Source of the DNA: Bosea beijingensis
GTDB lineage: Bacteria; Pseudomonadota; Alphaproteobacteria; Rhizobiales; Beijerinckiaceae
Assembly (NCBI RefSeq): GCF_030758975.1
Contig: NZ_CP132359.1
Coordinates: 1,070,811 to 1,134,810, forward strand
Length of the DNA: 64,000 nt
Direction: 5' to 3'
Shown piece by piece: positions 24,761 to 30,615 of this stretch (positions are counted from its first letter, which is position 1; each line of letters opens with the position of its first letter). The notes under the pieces were generated by a model that saw nothing but the letters and a program-made list of their open reading frames with translations, was not told the origin of the DNA and ran no database searches. Position numbers and translations under genes: made by a program.

Positions 24761-25033
24761 TCAAACAGCCCTGCGTCCGATTTGGACCAAGCTGTATTGA
24801 GGGGGAAGGGCAGCGCAGGCTTCAGCGAACGCTCTTGTTGCCGCTCTCAAAATTCGCAGGGAACCCCTGGCTTGAGCTTCCTGCAGAAGGAGTAGGGTCC
24901 GCTTAGCGGTCGGCTCGTGCCCCATGACCCTGTCGAGGAACTGAAAGGCCTCCAAAGCCGTTCTGATCTCGATCCTAGGCCCACCAAGCTGCGTAATATA
25001 GATCGTCATCTTCAGATAATGAATCTCGGGCAC
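24761..25033 (-). CDS. small protein, possibly DUF982 family
   Basis: 90 aa from a GTG at 25033, chosen because AAAGGAG lies six bases upstream; a TTG at 25054 or an ATG at 25009 are alternatives. Its pattern (MTIYITQLGGPRIEI, ALEAFQFLDRVMGH, then an alanine-rich helix RILRAATRAFAEAC) resembles the DUF982 proteins that are abundant in Rhizobiales, whose function is unknown. No membrane segment or signal peptide. It is on the same strand as the secretion operon but 100 bp beyond its last gene. The reverse-strand ORF over this area is less plausible. Confidence 0.5.
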   Translation of the reverse strand: MPEIHYLKMTIYITQLGGPRIEIRTALEAFQFLDRVMGHEPTAKRTLLLLQEAQARGSLRILRAATRAFAEACAALPPQYSLVQIGRRAV

Positions 25034-25132
25034 GCTGAGCTCCTTTGGAGACAATACGCGCCTCGTGACGTCCTAGATGCATTCGGCAAGCAATTTTTAA
25101 ATAAATCAGCGCGGAAAAATGCACGGTCAATT

Positions 25133-26167
25133 CTAGAGAAGACCGTGCAGCAAACTTCCGTGAGCGCCGGCCGACGTATCGAAATCTCCGCCAACGTCAC
25201 TATAGGACTGACCGGAGAAGCCGATTTTGACAGCTTCGACCGTGGAGGCGAGGTACGGCAGGTCGATCTGCAGCCCTCCGGCGGTGACGGACGGAGCGTG
25301 GTCCTGTTCAGGCGCCGGGGCGACCGGATCGCCGTCGTTCCCGAACAGGGTCGCCAGCAGGCCGCCGCTGCTGCCGGCATCGTGATCCGCGCCGAGCAGG
25401 CTCTGCGGGATGTCGGTGACCTTTGCGAGCGTCGTGTCTAGCGAATGATCCAGCCGCTCCAGCGCGGCATCGAGCTTGAACGTCGCCGCCGACAGCGCGG
25501 TATCGACCCTTGCCGCGATTGTTTCACCGAGCTGGCCGACCGTCTGGTCGAGCCGCTCGCTCAGCTGCGACTGCTTCGCCTCCAGAGACTCAACCAGCGT
25601 GCTCAGCTTCTCGAACGCCTTGCCGAAATCAGGCGCGTCGCTGCCGCCGATCGCTTCGAGCAGGCTGCGAGCAGGCGCCGAGTCGCTCTGTGCCGTATCG
25701 TCCTTCGCGGCGTCCGCAGCGGGCTGGGTGCCACGCTCGTCCTGATGGGTGGCGCCGGCGCCCGGCATCGATGCTGGAGCGTCGGCCGACATTCCGCCGC
25801 TACGATCCAAGCTCTGGACGGGCGGGTTCGCGGCATTGGTGGGCGCCGTCGGATCGGCGTGTGTCGCTTCGGTGGCAGTGGCTTCCACGACAGGCTTTTC
25901 GGCCGCAGCCGGCGTGCCATCTTGCGCCTCCGGCTGCTGCGCCGATGGAGGCGGATCGCTTGCCCGCTCCGGCTGCTGAACCTGAGCGGCCTCCATGCGG
26001 GCCCGGTCGTCCATCACCTCGGCCAACGCGCCGCTCACCGCTCCCGCCAGGAACACGCCGGTGGTGGCCGCGAGCGCCGCCGCCGATTCGATCCCCTGTG
26101 GGGCAGCCGAGCGCTGTGCGCCCTTCGCGCCGGTAGACTTGATCTCGGCTTTTCCCAGTCCGCTCAT
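25133..26167 (-). CDS. unrecognised Ala/Asp/Pro-rich protein, candidate type I secretion passenger
   Basis: 344 aa, not recognised as a known family. The start has a strong Shine-Dalgarno (TGAGGAGGAGGCGATG). Layout: short basic N-terminus; a moderately hydrophobic Ala/Gly stretch (about 28-50); a long low-complexity Pro/Ala/Glu/Asp region (about 55-165); an amphipathic helical region (about 175-255, KLSTLVESLEAKQSQLSERL); a Gly/Asp-rich tail ending AGAHGSLLHGLL. No classical cleavable signal, no Cys, and no clear RTX nonapeptides. It is 10 bp downstream of the HlyD gene. The ending resembles that of the other flanking protein (GGGLLGGLL at 29279). Secretion by this system is inference; a structural accessory role is possible. 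Confidence 0.75.
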   Translation of the reverse strand: MSGLGKAEIKSTGAKGAQRSAAPQGIESAAALAATTGVFLAGAVSGALAEVMDDRARMEAAQVQQPERASDPPPSAQQPEAQDGTPAAAEKPVVEATATEATHADPTAPTNAANPPVQSLDRSGGMSADAPASMPGAGATHQDERGTQPAADAAKDDTAQSDSAPARSLLEAIGGSDAPDFGKAFEKLSTLVESLEAKQSQLSERLDQTVGQLGETIAARVDTALSAATFKLDAALERLDHSLDTTLAKVTDIPQSLLGADHDAGSSGGLLATLFGNDGDPVAPAPEQDHAPSVTAGGLQIDLPYLASTVEAVKIGFSGQSYSDVGGDFDTSAGAHGSLLHGLL

Positions 26168-26177
26168 CGCCTCCTCC

Positions 26178-27497
26178 TCACTTCTCGCGGAACGAACCTG
26201 AAATCTCGTCCAGCAGCGGGCCGACCAGATATTCGAACAGCGAACGCCCTTTGGTGGGGATTACGACCTCGGCGACCATGCCGGACTGCAGAGCGACCTT
26301 GGCCCTCTGCACGTCCTGATCGTTCATCCGCACCTTGACGGAATAGAAGGCCTGACCGGACCTCTCGTCGGTGATGCGGTCGGCCGAGACGACCACGATC
26401 TCGCCGCGGATCGTCGGCCGTTCGTTGCGGTTGATGCTGACGAGCCGGATATCGGCCTGGCGCCCGGTCGCGACGTCGCTGATCTCGTTCAGCGGCAGGC
26501 GGGCTTCGACCATCAGCGGATTGGTGTTCGGTACGACGTCCATCAGCTTGGCACCGGGCTGGATTACGCCGCCCTCAGTAAAGACGTTGAGGCCGACCAC
26601 CATGCCGCTCGCCGGCGCCTTGATTTCGGTCCGGCCGAGTGCCTCGCTGGCGGCGGCGATGCGTGGCTCGCCGGCGACGAGCTTGGCCTGTACCTCGCGC
26701 AGCCGGTCGGTGACTTCCGCGATGATGCCGCGCTCGATCTTGGCGATCTCCAGCTCCGCTTCGCCCACAGCTTCCTGGATGCGCGCGACTTCGGCGATTC
26801 TGGCACCGCGGTCGGCCTCCAGCTTCGCTGCGTCACGCTCCAGCGCGAGTACGCGGGTTTTAGGCGTATAGCCTGCGGCGAGAAGCTGGCGCGCGCCGCC
26901 GGCTTCCTCCTCCAGCAGCGACTTCTGGCGCTCGAGTCCGGCGATCTGGGCCTGGAGACCGCCGCGCTGCTCGCTGAGCTGGCCGATGCGCTGCCTCAGG
27001 ATATCAGCCTGGGTCCGGGTCTGCCGCTCGCGGGCGGCGAGAATCGCCGTCTCATTGGCAATCGCCTGCTTGACGGCCGCTTCGTCGCGGCGGGCGTCGA
27101 GCGCTCCAAAATCCGGCTGCGTCTTGCGATCGCGCTCGGCGACGAGGCGGGCCTCCTCCGCCAGCAGCGCATCGCGCTCGGCTTGCAGGATATCCAGCCT
27201 GGCCTTCGGCTCGGTCTCCGACAGGACCATCAACACCTGCCCGCGCGCGACGCGATCACCCTCCTTGACGCGCAACTGCCTGATCACGCCGCCATCGGGA
27301 TGCTGCACCGATTGGCGCTGCCCCTCGACCTGGAGATTGCCTTGGGCGATCGCCGCACCCGACAGGGGCGCGAGCGCACTCCAGGCTCCGAAGACGAGCG
27401 CGAAGCCGGCGAGCGTCGCCAGACCCAGCCGCACCGGCCCGGCGGTCGTCATATAGGTGCCGCGGCGGTTGGCCTGAAGCTCCAGGAGTTCCGTCAT
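26178..27497 (-). CDS. type I secretion periplasmic adaptor (HlyD/PrtE family)
   Basis: 439 aa. One N-terminal membrane anchor (VRLGLATLAGFALVFGAWSALAP, about residues 22-44) is followed by the lipoyl-like half motif QHPDGGVIRQLRVKEGDRVARGQVL, a long coiled-coil hairpin (about 95-280), the returning lipoyl half (KAPASGMVVGLNVFTEGGVI) and a beta-barrel end (GRQADIRLVSINRNERP, QSGMVAEVVIPTKGRSLFEYL). This is the TIGR01843-like adaptor that links an inner-membrane ABC exporter to TolC. It is 10 bp after the ABC gene and uses a nearly identical ribosome site (GAGGAGGACGCGATG). No TolC gene is in the window. Confidence 0.92.
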   Translation of the reverse strand: MTELLELQANRRGTYMTTAGPVRLGLATLAGFALVFGAWSALAPLSGAAIAQGNLQVEGQRQSVQHPDGGVIRQLRVKEGDRVARGQVLMVLSETEPKARLDILQAERDALLAEEARLVAERDRKTQPDFGALDARRDEAAVKQAIANETAILAARERQTRTQADILRQRIGQLSEQRGGLQAQIAGLERQKSLLEEEAGGARQLLAAGYTPKTRVLALERDAAKLEADRGARIAEVARIQEAVGEAELEIAKIERGIIAEVTDRLREVQAKLVAGEPRIAAASEALGRTEIKAPASGMVVGLNVFTEGGVIQPGAKLMDVVPNTNPLMVEARLPLNEISDVATGRQADIRLVSINRNERPTIRGEIVVVSADRITDERSGQAFYSVKVRMNDQDVQRAKVALQSGMVAEVVIPTKGRSLFEYLVGPLLDEISGSFREK

Positions 27498-27507
27498 CGC
27501 GTCCTCC

Positions 27508-29223
27508 TCAGGTCACGGTGCCCTGCTGCTTCTTCGGCAGCATGGTCCGCTTGATATGAGCGTAGACCTCCTCCGGCGGGGCGAGCTTCTCCATTCGGCC
27601 TCCGCGAACGAACATCAGCGCGTCGACCACCTCCAGCACCGTATCGCGATGCGTCACGACGATGATCGTCGAGCCCTGCTGCTTCAGCGTCAGGAGCGCA
27701 TTCTTCAGCGCGATCTCGCCAGTGCCGTCGAGATTGGCGTTCGGCTCGTCGAGAATGATCAGCGGCGGCTTGCCGAGCAGCGCGCGCGCCAGGCCAAGCC
27801 GCTGGCGCTGGCCGCCGGACAGCCCGACGCCGCCCGGCCCCAGCATGGTGTCGTATTGCTCGGGCAGTTCCAGCACCATCTCGTGGATTCCGGTCATCTT
27901 CGCGGCCTCGACGATCTCCTCGATGCTGGCTGGACCAAAGCGGGCGATGTTGTCGCGCACGCTGCCGGCGAAGAGGCCGATATCCTGCGGCAGATAGCCG
28001 ATGCGCTTGCCGAGCTCGGTGCGCGACCATTGCGCGTAGTCGATGCCGCCAAGTTGGATCGCTCCGGCCGAGGGAGAGATCGCGCCGACGAGCAGCCGCG
28101 CCAGCGTGCTCTTTCCCGAACCGCTCGGCCCGACGAGCCCGATCGCCTGTCCGGCCGGCAGGTCAAAGGAGATGTCCGACAGGATCGGCGCTTTCCGGCC
28201 GGGCAGCGTGTAACCTAGGCCCTTCGCCGCCATGGCGTGATCATCGGCCGGAACGATGGTGCGCGTCTCCTGCGGCGGCACCTCGCGCAGCAATTCGCGG
28301 ACGCGGGCATAGCCTTGCCGCGCCTCGTTGAAGGAGCGCCAGGTCGCGACCGCCTGCTCGACGGGGACCAGCGCCCGGCCCATCACGATGCTGGCGGCGA
28401 AGATCGTGGCCGGCATGATCGCCTGGCCGATTGCCAGCCAGGCGCCGACGCCGAGCATCAGCGCCTGCAGCAGCAGCCGCGCGACGCGGATGCCAGAGGA
28501 GACGACGGCGTTGCGGTCACTGGCCGAGGCCTGCTCGGTGAGCATCGTGTCGCGGCTGGCGAACCAGTTGCGCTCGATCGCCGGCTGCATGCCCATCCCG
28601 ACGACGACGTCGGAATGACGCAGGATGTTCTCGGTGAAGACATAGGCGCGATTGCCCGACGCTTCCGACTGCCGCAGCGCGCGGCGCGTGATCCGCTCGT
28701 TCAACACGGCAAGACCAAGCAGCAGCAAGGCTGCGAGCGTGGCGACGATGCCGAGCAGAGGATGAATGATGAAAAGCAGGATGAGGTAGATCGGGATCCA
28801 GGGCAGATCGAAGGCGAAATGGATGCCGGGGCCGGTGACGAAGGAGCGGAACTGGTCGAGATCGCGCAGCGTCTGCGCGCCTTTCGAGTAGCCCTGCCGC
28901 GCGGAGCGGACGATCAGCGCCTCAAAGACCCGGCCCGAGAGCGCCGCATCCAGGCGGACGCCGCAGCGGATCAGCAATTGCGAGCGCGCCGCGTCGAGCA
29001 GCCCCATCGTGGCGAGCGCGATCGCCAGGATCAGCGTCAGCATCAAAAGGGTCGTGACGTTCTCGGAGACGAGAACGCGGTTATAGACCTGCATCAGATA
29101 CAGCGGCGAGCTGAGATAAAGCAGGTTGATCGCGCTGCTGAAAAGCCCGGCCAGCGCGAAGGGCCGCCACATGGCTTTCAGGGCGTCGCCAACCTCTTCC
29201 GCAATGATCGCATTGTTTTTCAT
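27508..29223 (-). CDS. type I secretion ABC exporter (PrtD/AprD family permease-ATPase)
   Basis: 571 aa. A membrane domain of about six segments (20-290) precedes the nucleotide-binding domain: Walker A at 365-372 (GPSGSGKST), Q-loop near LPQDIGLFAGSVRDNI, signature LSGGQRQR at 468-475, Walker B IILDEP at 489-494, H-loop VVTHRD near 523-528. There is no N-terminal C39 peptidase or C39-like domain, so it is not a double-glycine bacteriocin processor; it matches the PrtD group that exports proteins with an uncleaved C-terminal signal. Translation begins 17 bp after the intercistronic hairpin. Confidence 0.93.
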   Translation of the reverse strand: MKNNAIIAEEVGDALKAMWRPFALAGLFSSAINLLYLSSPLYLMQVYNRVLVSENVTTLLMLTLILAIALATMGLLDAARSQLLIRCGVRLDAALSGRVFEALIVRSARQGYSKGAQTLRDLDQFRSFVTGPGIHFAFDLPWIPIYLILLFIIHPLLGIVATLAALLLLGLAVLNERITRRALRQSEASGNRAYVFTENILRHSDVVVGMGMQPAIERNWFASRDTMLTEQASASDRNAVVSSGIRVARLLLQALMLGVGAWLAIGQAIMPATIFAASIVMGRALVPVEQAVATWRSFNEARQGYARVRELLREVPPQETRTIVPADDHAMAAKGLGYTLPGRKAPILSDISFDLPAGQAIGLVGPSGSGKSTLARLLVGAISPSAGAIQLGGIDYAQWSRTELGKRIGYLPQDIGLFAGSVRDNIARFGPASIEEIVEAAKMTGIHEMVLELPEQYDTMLGPGGVGLSGGQRQRLGLARALLGKPPLIILDEPNANLDGTGEIALKNALLTLKQQGSTIIVVTHRDTVLEVVDALMFVRGGRMEKLAPPEEVYAHIKRTMLPKKQQGTVT

Positions 29224-29240
29224 GCCGGTGCCCGACGGAA

Positions 29241-29265
29241 ATCCGGGCGGCTAAGCCGCCCGGAT
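29241..29265 (-). terminator. intercistronic GC-rich hairpin between passenger and exporter genes
   Basis: A perfect inverted repeat: arms ATCCGGGCGGC (29241-29251) and GCCGCCCGGAT (29255-29265) around a 3-base loop. On the coding (minus) strand it follows the stop of the small Ser/Gly-rich protein and lies 17 bp ahead of the exporter ATG. Only TTTCC follows, a weak T-run, so it may be a partial terminator or an mRNA 3'-end stabiliser. Such an element would allow high passenger and low exporter expression, as known for other type I secretion operons. Confidence 0.7.
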
Positions 29266-29278
29266 GACGTCCGATCGA

Positions 29279-29608
29279 TTACAGCAGGCCGCCGAGAAGG
29301 CCGCCGCCGCCACCGTTCGAGTCGGTCTCGGAGCTCGACGCGCTGTCATTGCTCGAACTGGTCCCGATGAAGGTCGGGGCCGCCAGGCCGATGCCGAGAT
29401 CACCAATGCCGGTGAAGGACTGGTGATCGCTGTCACCATCCGAGCCATCGCTGCTCTGGCTCTCGGAACGCAGAACATCTGAGAGGCTGAGCCCGAATTG
29501 CGGGTTGGTCCCGAACTCGGTGTTGTTTTCAGAGGAGCTCACGTTCGCTTCACGGCTATCGTTGTTCGAGCCGAGAACGCCGCCCAGGAGATCGTCGAGA
29601 AGTGCCAT
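29279..29608 (-). CDS. unrecognised small Ser/Asn/Gly-rich acidic protein, candidate type I secretion passenger
   Basis: 109 aa from ATG 29608 (MALLDDLLGGVLGSN), preceded by GAAAGGAACC; an upstream start would add a basic 16-residue segment. No family recognised. The middle is rich in Ser, Asn, Asp and Glu (VSSSENNTEFG, SQSSDGSDGDSDHQ) and very acidic, with no Cys, no signal peptide and no membrane segment. The tail is GGGGGLLGGLL, so both ends carry LLGG-like motifs. First gene of the secretion operon. The tail likeness to the 25133-26167 protein (GSLLHGLL) suggests a shared export signal. A spacer of 344 bp upstream (29609-29952) holds its promoter and repeat copy C. Confidence 0.72.
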   Translation of the reverse strand: MALLDDLLGGVLGSNNDSREANVSSSENNTEFGTNPQFGLSLSDVLRSESQSSDGSDGDSDHQSFTGIGDLGIGLAAPTFIGTSSSNDSASSSETDSNGGGGGLLGGLL

Positions 29609-29952: not shown

Positions 29953-30615
29953 ATGCCTATCATCATGGGGACCTCGGCCAAGGGACGCCTGCGGCTCGAT
30001 GTGCCGTCAGCGCTTGGAAACTTCGTCATTTTCCCAGCGCTCGCCGAGTTCAGCGCCCAGTTCTCGGACATCCAGTTAGTAGTCGGCGTCGGCGACCGGC
30101 CAGTGAATCTGATCGAGGAGAGCGTGGATTGCGTCATTCGCGGTGGCAAGCTGGCCGACACGATGCTGGTTTCGCGTCTGCTGTTCAATGACCCGCTGGT
30201 GACCTGCGCTGCGCCCGACTACCTCGCAAAACACGGCATTCCGACATCACCATCAGGATTGGAAAGGCACCACCGGATCGTCGGCTATTTCGGGGGTGTA
30301 ACGGGTGAGCCGGTGCCGCTCCGCTTCGGCAGGAAAAACGAGACCTATGCAATCTCCCGCTTCGACAACGCCACTAGCGACAGCACCAGCCGCATCCACA
30401 TGATGCTGGCCGGCATGGGGGTTGGGCAGATGCACCAGAGCGCAGTCGAGAGCCACCTTTCGTCCAGCGCGCTCGTGAGCGTGCTGGAGGACTGGACGAA
30501 CGACATCATCCCCATGCAGATCACGTATCCGCCCAGCAAGCAGGCCAATGCGAGGCTCAGGGCATTCATTGATTGGATGGCGGCTCAGTTCAAGGCCCAA
30601 CGCGAGCGACGATAG
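29953..30615 (+). pseudogene. LysR-family regulator remnant lacking the DNA-binding domain
   Basis: 220 aa that correspond to a LysR substrate-binding domain only: SAKGRLRLDVPSALGNFVIFPALAEF, then VVGVGDRPVNLIEESVDCVIRGG, VSRLLFNDPLVTCAAPDYLAKHG and the usual C-terminal ADMMxAF-like regions. Full LysR proteins are about 300 aa; the first ~90 residues with the helix-turn-helix are missing. In the same frame a TGA occurs at 29941, 12 bp before the ATG, and no helix-turn-helix is readable upstream in other frames. It is flanked by repeat copies C and D. Probably nonfunctional, although the domain itself has no internal stop. Confidence 0.75.

Follow-up and report, generated by a model that had tools for sequence, protein, structure and literature searches.

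A type I secretion operon of Bosea beijingensis with two candidate non-RTX passenger proteins flanking a PrtD-type exporter and its adaptor

Results

A four-gene operon around an exporter and its adaptor

We describe an operon of the soil bacterium Bosea beijingensis in which two type I secretion genes, prtD and hlyD, are enclosed by two further genes, here called gene 1 and gene 4. The operon lies on the minus strand of a stretch of 64,000 nucleotides (the window; contig NZ_CP132359.1, positions 1,070,811 to 1,134,810) in a genome that forms a single contig of 5.56 Mb, and coordinates are those of the window. Type I secretion is known mainly through RTX proteins and giant adhesins. Could the proteins encoded by the outer genes be the passengers of the exporter between them? 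An earlier note, made from the sequence alone, had raised this possibility, and four open reading frames (ORFs) are located where it had put them:

29279..29608, minus strand: gene 1, an acidic protein of 109 amino acids rich in Ser, Gly and Asn, the likely main passenger (from composition, family search and tail conservation)
27508..29223, minus strand: PrtD-type ABC exporter without a C39 domain (TIGR01842 match, Pfam, alignment to HlyB)
26178..27497, minus strand: HlyD-type periplasmic adaptor (TIGR01843 match)
25133..26167, minus strand: gene 4, an Ala/Pro/Asp-rich protein of 344 amino acids, a likely second passenger or tether (from its position behind hlyD at 14 of 14 loci)

Curated models bear out the identities that had been proposed for the two inner genes. 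The exporter scores 633 bits against TIGR01842 type_I_sec_PrtD (cut-off 510, E 3.9e-190) and the adaptor 339 bits against TIGR01843 type_I_hlyD (cut-off 209, E 4.4e-101). No C39 domain appears in the Pfam listing of the exporter, and its alignment to solved HlyB chains starts at HlyB residue 161, in agreement with the earlier description; its best solved relative is 5l22. TolC-type channels are encoded elsewhere in the genome, where four open frames together give seven OEP domain matches. In PADLOC the exporter has seven matches, which we read as generic ATPase similarity, and gene 1, gene 4 and the adaptor have none.

The order gene 1-prtD-hlyD-gene 4 is kept at 14 loci, found in Bosea, Devosia, Pseudolabrys and further genomes of the same order, Hyphomicrobiales. 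This upholds the operon unity that had been proposed from near-identical ribosome sites, which are indeed present as GAGGAGGACGCGATG ahead of hlyD and GAGGAGGAGGCGATG ahead of gene 4, with a 10-base gap in each case. At 13 tabulated loci, with gene starts assigned by hand, hlyD overlaps the end of prtD by 4 bases or starts no more than 13 bases from it, and gene 4 starts no more than 25 bases past the end of hlyD (13 of 13); the fourteenth locus, in genome G254 (L045), has an identical gene order. By ORF comparison above set cut-offs, no neighbour outside the four genes is common to all 13 loci. Extra neighbour ORFs are common to the Devosia loci and to those of G210, G258 and G308 (two families), and two weak ORF matches (36-38%) connect other loci at unequal distances from the operon.

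Conservation and distribution

The exporters of the 13 other operons are 59-68% identical to that of the window. In a midpoint-rooted tree, for which the programme gave a long-branch warning, a branch with 100/100 support parts the 14 operon exporters and an exporter fragment of Bosea sp. Root381 from three of the seven distant exporters described below. Across 397 genomes of the order, a search that started from the exporter, independent of both outer genes, returned ten matches with an E of 1e-150 or lower: the window itself, six at 59-68% identity and three at 44-46%. All six non-self genomes at 59-68% carry a small ORF before the exporter-adaptor pair and a protein of 304-476 amino acids behind it; in three of the six, no profile relationship links the small ORF to gene 1. 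Beside the three exporters at 44-46% no recognisable gene 4 is present. Among 353 genomes of the class, four exporters at 44-48% have no gene 4 or gene 1 match next to them (the upstream side in G488 ends with the contig), and gene 4 was thus recognised in none of seven PrtD homologues at 44-48% identity. One of the order's exporters at 44-46% has a 2408-residue repeat protein upstream.

A gene 1 profile matched 2 of 61 genomes near that of the window (2 of 37 Bosea), 4 of 75 Devosia, two being seeds, and 3 of 248 genomes in the Pseudolabrys family, one a seed. The first gene 1 profile matched one of 397 genomes of the order and a wider profile one of 385 of the class, in both cases the window's own. 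Because the gene 1 profile missed all six exporter-first genomes in the same sample, these counts of rarity are lower bounds. The earlier note had suggested checking whether homologues sit beside PrtD/HlyD pairs. This held for the exporter, which adjoins gene 1 in nine of nine genomes with a gene 1 profile match; the count does not extend to the other database relatives, many of which lie on short contigs. Adaptor and gene 4 follow in eight of the nine, and in the ninth, Bosea sp. Root381, the exporter beside gene 1 is cut by a contig end. The same genome (L012/L025, G024:C25) contains a 114-residue ORF with a gene 4 C-terminus, on a contig other than that of gene 1 and the exporter, and this ORF adjoins another that by eye resembles a transposase. 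A full-text literature search with partial coverage found no paper on a gene 1-prtD-hlyD-gene 4 operon.

Gene 1 and its family

Gene 1 of the window has a pI of 4.05, no Cys and two Lys/Arg residues. Neither gene 1 nor gene 4 has a Pfam or NCBIfam family above cut-off and neither shows RTX repeats, so the view that the flanking proteins are not recognisable as RTX proteins or proteases stands. The GGxGxD motif is absent from the gene 1 and gene 4 proteins of the 14 operons, one gene 1 protein being a partial piece, and occurs six times in total across 115 proteins of the gene 1 family. Pfam gave no RTX match, and it matched no HasA domain in P0001, P0002 or ten more gene 1/gene 4 proteins.

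Relatives of gene 1 numbered 33 in a search of 5.8 billion proteins and at least 112 by profile; adding the window protein and two from Devosia to the profile relatives gives a set of 115. Of these, 104 contain an M-S-I-L-D-x-L-L-G-type pattern and 7 contain Cys. The 14 small proteins at the gene 1 place of the operons, which include a partial piece in G992 and the profile-unrelated proteins of G210, G258 and G308, all have a pI of 4.05-4.60 and 0-2 Lys/Arg, with Cys in the G992 piece only. No gene 1 relative was found on viral contigs, and one relative, P0046, had no match among plasmids.

An AlphaFold2 model of gene 1 from 95 sequences predicts a short N-terminal helix followed by an all-beta part. 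Foldseek of this model against the PDB gave 95 matches at E<=10, none at E 0.001 and a best E of 0.042; the top rows, with low TM-scores, are pore-forming proteins, matched in their long beta-hairpin stems, and components of phage tails. Given the pLDDT of 66, we regard these matches as fortuitous and infer no function. PDB sequence relatives were found neither for gene 1 at E 1 nor for gene 4 at E 0.1.

The C-terminal tails

The likeness that the earlier note had seen between the tail of gene 1, GGGLLGGLL, and that of gene 4, HGSLLHGLL, is present in the window. The corresponding pattern YTNYTNNNNGGNYTNYTNTRR, which excludes Ile and was chosen once the tails were known, has six matches on both strands of the 5.56 Mb genome; the reversed pattern has ten. 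Only two of the six encode Leu-Leu-x-Gly-Leu-Leu-stop, and these two terminate gene 1 and gene 4. Conservation of the tails, which had been proposed as a check, was found for gene 1 and not for gene 4: L-x-G-x-x stands at the exact last residue in 114 of 115 gene 1 proteins (P0022 has another ending), and the gene 4 ending varies by group. It is H-G-(L/F)-(L/F/V) in Bosea, G992 and G1065 only, NALSLL or NALNLL in Devosia, SALG(V/I/L)HHF in Pseudolabrys and genus g42 (G359, G231, G254), and STHH(A/V)A in G210, G258 and G308. In g42 gene 1 itself has diverged (profile E-values 0.0022, 0.01 and, without significance, 0.17), with the endings GGLLHGLV, GGLLNGLV and GGLLHGLA.

The protein search gave at least three relatives of gene 4, itself not counted, and gene 4 has a match in 2 of 61 genomes near the window's. 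The protein behind hlyD measures 300-1248 amino acids at the 14 loci, and its C-terminus carries F-x-G-Q-(S/P) or a variant. Three parts can be told apart in the window protein:

26021..26089, minus strand: hydrophobic Gly/Ala segment after a basic stretch near the N-terminus, residues ~27-49 (KD19 maximum 1.67 at residue 31; model helix 24-63, low confidence)
25415..25627, minus strand: predicted long helix, residues 181-251 (AlphaFold2, ten-residue pLDDT means of 55-68 across 181-250)
25133..25261, minus strand: last 42 residues, F-x-G-Q-S motif and tail, kept in several groups (C-terminal profile comparison)

The AlphaFold2 model of the whole of gene 4 has a pLDDT of 43 and a pTM of 0.19. 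Profiles of its last 42 residues were built with one group left out at a time and scored among 2599 partly redundant ORFs. They recovered the Bosea proteins at E 4.7e-4, 4.9e-4 and 0.022, Pseudolabrys at 6.5e-6, G254 at 1.3e-5, G231 at 1.8e-5, G992 at 6.1e-4 and G1065 at 3.6e-3; G359 was not reported. The best background E was 0.38-0.76, except in the model built without Devosia, which ranks gene 1 of G992 first among the background at E 0.0037. These E-values link four of the six gene 4 groups at the C-terminus. When the six groups were compared by profile over their whole length, E fell below 1e-3 for 6 of the 15 pairings (those of Devosia with Bosea and with G992 included), with a top probability of at most 59%. 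We put weak gene 4 matches below cut-off (apolipoprotein, GltJ and others), and one of PF04513 Baculo_PEP_C to gene 4 of G992 at 83 bits (cut-off 38), down to resemblance among helical or hydrophobic repeats.

Repeat expansion of both outer proteins in G992

Gene 1 contains a core of about 50 residues, present once in the window protein and at least six times in G992, a genome of the Pseudolabrys family sample:

29360..29518, minus strand: the gene 1 core module, spanning roughly residues 31-83 and corresponding to the repeat unit of the homologue in G992 (profile matches in G992)

The long G992 protein at the gene 1 place is broken by a contig end and a run of 100 N; each of its two pieces has three core-profile matches, with an i-Evalue of 5e-4 or better, and a Gly/Thr/Pro repeat precedes the modules. 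Gene 1 of the window thus corresponds to a single module of what can also occur as a tandem array. Gene 4 of G992 (L032:1130-4876, minus strand) is expanded as well, to 1248 amino acids with nine hydrophobic 28-residue repeats. Enlargement of both outer proteins, seen in this one genome, is easier to reconcile with structural proteins of the surface than with accessory factors. The same gene 4 protein also has a stretch of shorter repeats rich in Asn, Thr and Val.

A hairpin between gene 1 and prtD

The gap behind gene 1 contains a strong hairpin that the earlier note had not listed, a potential regulatory element:

29241..29265, minus strand: GC-rich hairpin, read as an attenuator or 3' stabiliser (fold z-score -3.1)

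A stem of at least 10 pairs is found at this gap in 13 of 13 loci folded, and G254 also has a GC-rich stem. Eleven regions were short enough for a shuffle test, and z was -2.8 or lower in six. By attenuating transcription or protecting the mRNA, the hairpin might allow gene 1 to be produced in excess over the exporter.

Discussion

What is the operon for? Taking the sequence comparisons together, we think it somewhat probable that it is a self-contained type I unit, in which PrtD and HlyD work with a shared TolC to export surface proteins targeted by their C-termini, namely gene 1 and probably gene 4. PrtD and HlyD would recruit a TolC-type channel encoded elsewhere in the genome, and gene 1 would leave the cytoplasm in one step, led by its uncleaved C-terminal L-L-x-G-L-L tail. 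Outside the cell it may build a beta-rich, Ser/Asp-rich surface or matrix material, the module being single in most species and arrayed in tandem in at least one. As for gene 4, its N-terminus is basic and hydrophobic and is followed by a long spacer, helical or of low complexity, and a putative C-terminal signal; it would most likely use the same exporter and may act as a tether or co-subunit. Of the two-passenger system first proposed, the part that concerns gene 1 has fared well, its role as a passenger being likely; gene 4, with its variable tail, is a plausible second passenger. One could go further and see here a new class of two-component type I-secreted surface material, with gene 1 as a self-associating beta module, single or tandem, and gene 4 as a co-exported tether with a related signal, both co-varying with a dedicated exporter. 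We offer this wider proposal tentatively and regard it as rather doubtful.

Several observations weigh against our main reading of the operon. The gene 4 tail differs between groups, and its likeness to that of gene 1 holds for Bosea and, in part, for G992 and G1065; a full gene 4 tail profile does not retrieve gene 1 proteins, and we do not claim homology of the two C-termini. The leave-group-out profiles miss gene 4 of Devosia (E 0.27, 7.1, 11 and 110), G258 (1.4) and G210 (11), and G308 and G359 are absent from their output; the proteins of G210, G258 and G308 are assigned to gene 4 by position and motif only. In these three genomes the gene 1 place is taken by a profile-unrelated protein of 81-85 amino acids with no LLxGLL tail. 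The three small proteins (G210, L047; G308, L048; G258, L049) are strongly conserved, end in DGVH(V/I)A and are followed by 228-253 bases before prtD. The Leu-rich ends are here missing jointly from both outer genes, as if tails and exporter changed together, a suggestive pattern that comes from one branch only. The predicted structure of gene 1 is a weak one (pLDDT 66, pTM 0.30), and 5 of the 11 hairpin regions have modest z-scores of -1.3 to -2.2. Finally, the basic-hydrophobic N-terminus of gene 4 could be a Sec signal or an anchor.

This last point leads to a different account, in which gene 1 is the sole passenger and gene 4 reaches the membrane or periplasm through its N-terminus as an accessory of the exporter (a gate, tether or chaperone), the likeness of the tails being mimicry or chance. 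All 14 gene 4 proteins have 4-7 Lys/Arg in their first 30 residues, the most hydrophobic 19-residue window begins at residues 21-31 in 11 of 14, and gene 4 is kept at all 14 loci despite the drift of its tail and the replacement of gene 1 at three. The hydrophobicity maxima are no higher than 1.1-1.7, however, and the three g42 proteins have theirs at other places. An accessory of 300-1248 residues, with repeats in G992, would be odd, and the restriction of Leu-Leu-x-Gly-Leu-Leu-stop to two ends in the genome, both in this operon, also speaks against this account, which we judge unlikely. Still less credit is due to the idea of an ordinary exporter operon with two unrelated neighbours, whose tails are alike through their Leu/Gly composition. 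Gene 4 tails that are not kept in every group, and the ten genome matches of the reversed pattern, would agree with it; the layout kept at 14 loci amid differing surroundings, the six of six genomes in the exporter-first test and the genome-wide tail count do not, and leave it highly improbable.

Might the two proteins instead attack neighbouring cells jointly while retained on the surface of their producer, as a bacteriocin of the Cdz type? Leader-processing exporters, that of Cdz included, are known to carry a C39 domain, which the Bosea exporter lacks. The resemblance lies in the cluster: that of CdzABCDI, the contact-dependent killing system of Caulobacter, pairs two unusual cargo proteins with an exporter and an adaptor, with no TolC homologue described in the cluster (PMC5380434). 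A patchy occurrence such as that of the gene 1 profile in 2 of 37 Bosea and 4 of 75 Devosia would suit a bacteriocin, and GxxxGxxxG has 13 matches in gene 4 of G992, compared with 0-3 in other gene 4 proteins. The Cdz cargo is described there as hydrophobic glycine-zipper protein with leader peptides, accompanied by a membrane immunity protein, and CdzC as mostly hydrophobic (PMC5380434). Gene 1, in contrast, is hydrophilic, acidic and Ser/Gly-rich, with at most 2 GxxxGxxxG matches in any gene 1 protein, and no fifth gene common to the 13 loci offers itself as an immunity gene. A killing function appears improbable to us.

We see in the operon a variation on known type I secretion systems and not a category of its own. 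The protease cargo of PrtD/PrtE systems consists of RTX proteins, and the predicted cargo of Rhizobium PrsDE is larger and mostly encoded apart from prsDE. Like PrtD/PrtE systems, the Bosea operon has clear members of the exporter and adaptor families, no C39 or C39-like domain and TolC-type proteins encoded elsewhere; it differs in that two non-RTX, non-protease proteins flank the pair, whereas the cargo named for PrtD/PrtE is proteases (PMC8277102). In type I systems generally, exporter, adaptor and outer channel move cargo from the cytoplasm in one step by an uncleaved C-terminal signal (PMC3034196). HasA/HasD, a non-RTX uncleaved cargo and an exporter without the N-terminal domain (PMC8277102), provides a precedent for non-RTX cargo of an exporter of this kind; unlike HasA, gene 1 and gene 4 have no HasA or other curated match, and there are two candidate cargo proteins. 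Rhizobium PrsDE, a type I system of the same order, is described as exporting the non-RTX proteins PlyA and PlyB too (PMC3034196), but its predicted cargo is mostly RTX or repeat proteins (PMC2275737).

Gene 1, with about 100 residues, no Cys, almost no Lys/Arg and a near-invariant tail, and encoded beside its putative exporter, could serve as a compact model for cargo recognition by PrtD. With the core occurring either once or as a tandem array, cargo length could be tested against self-association, and the enlargement of both candidate cargo proteins in G992 hints at a little-studied cell-surface material.

Other features of the window

Rfam (gathering scores) and tRNA scans of the window gave no matches. 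Immediately downstream of gene 4 lies a 97-residue ORF (24761-25054, minus strand), with no Pfam match at 1e-5. On the other side of the operon, a plus-strand ORF of 220 amino acids (29953-30615) has a LysR substrate-binding domain over residues 9-213, its sole Pfam family at 1e-5; as it lacks the helix-turn-helix part, it may be a remnant beside the operon.

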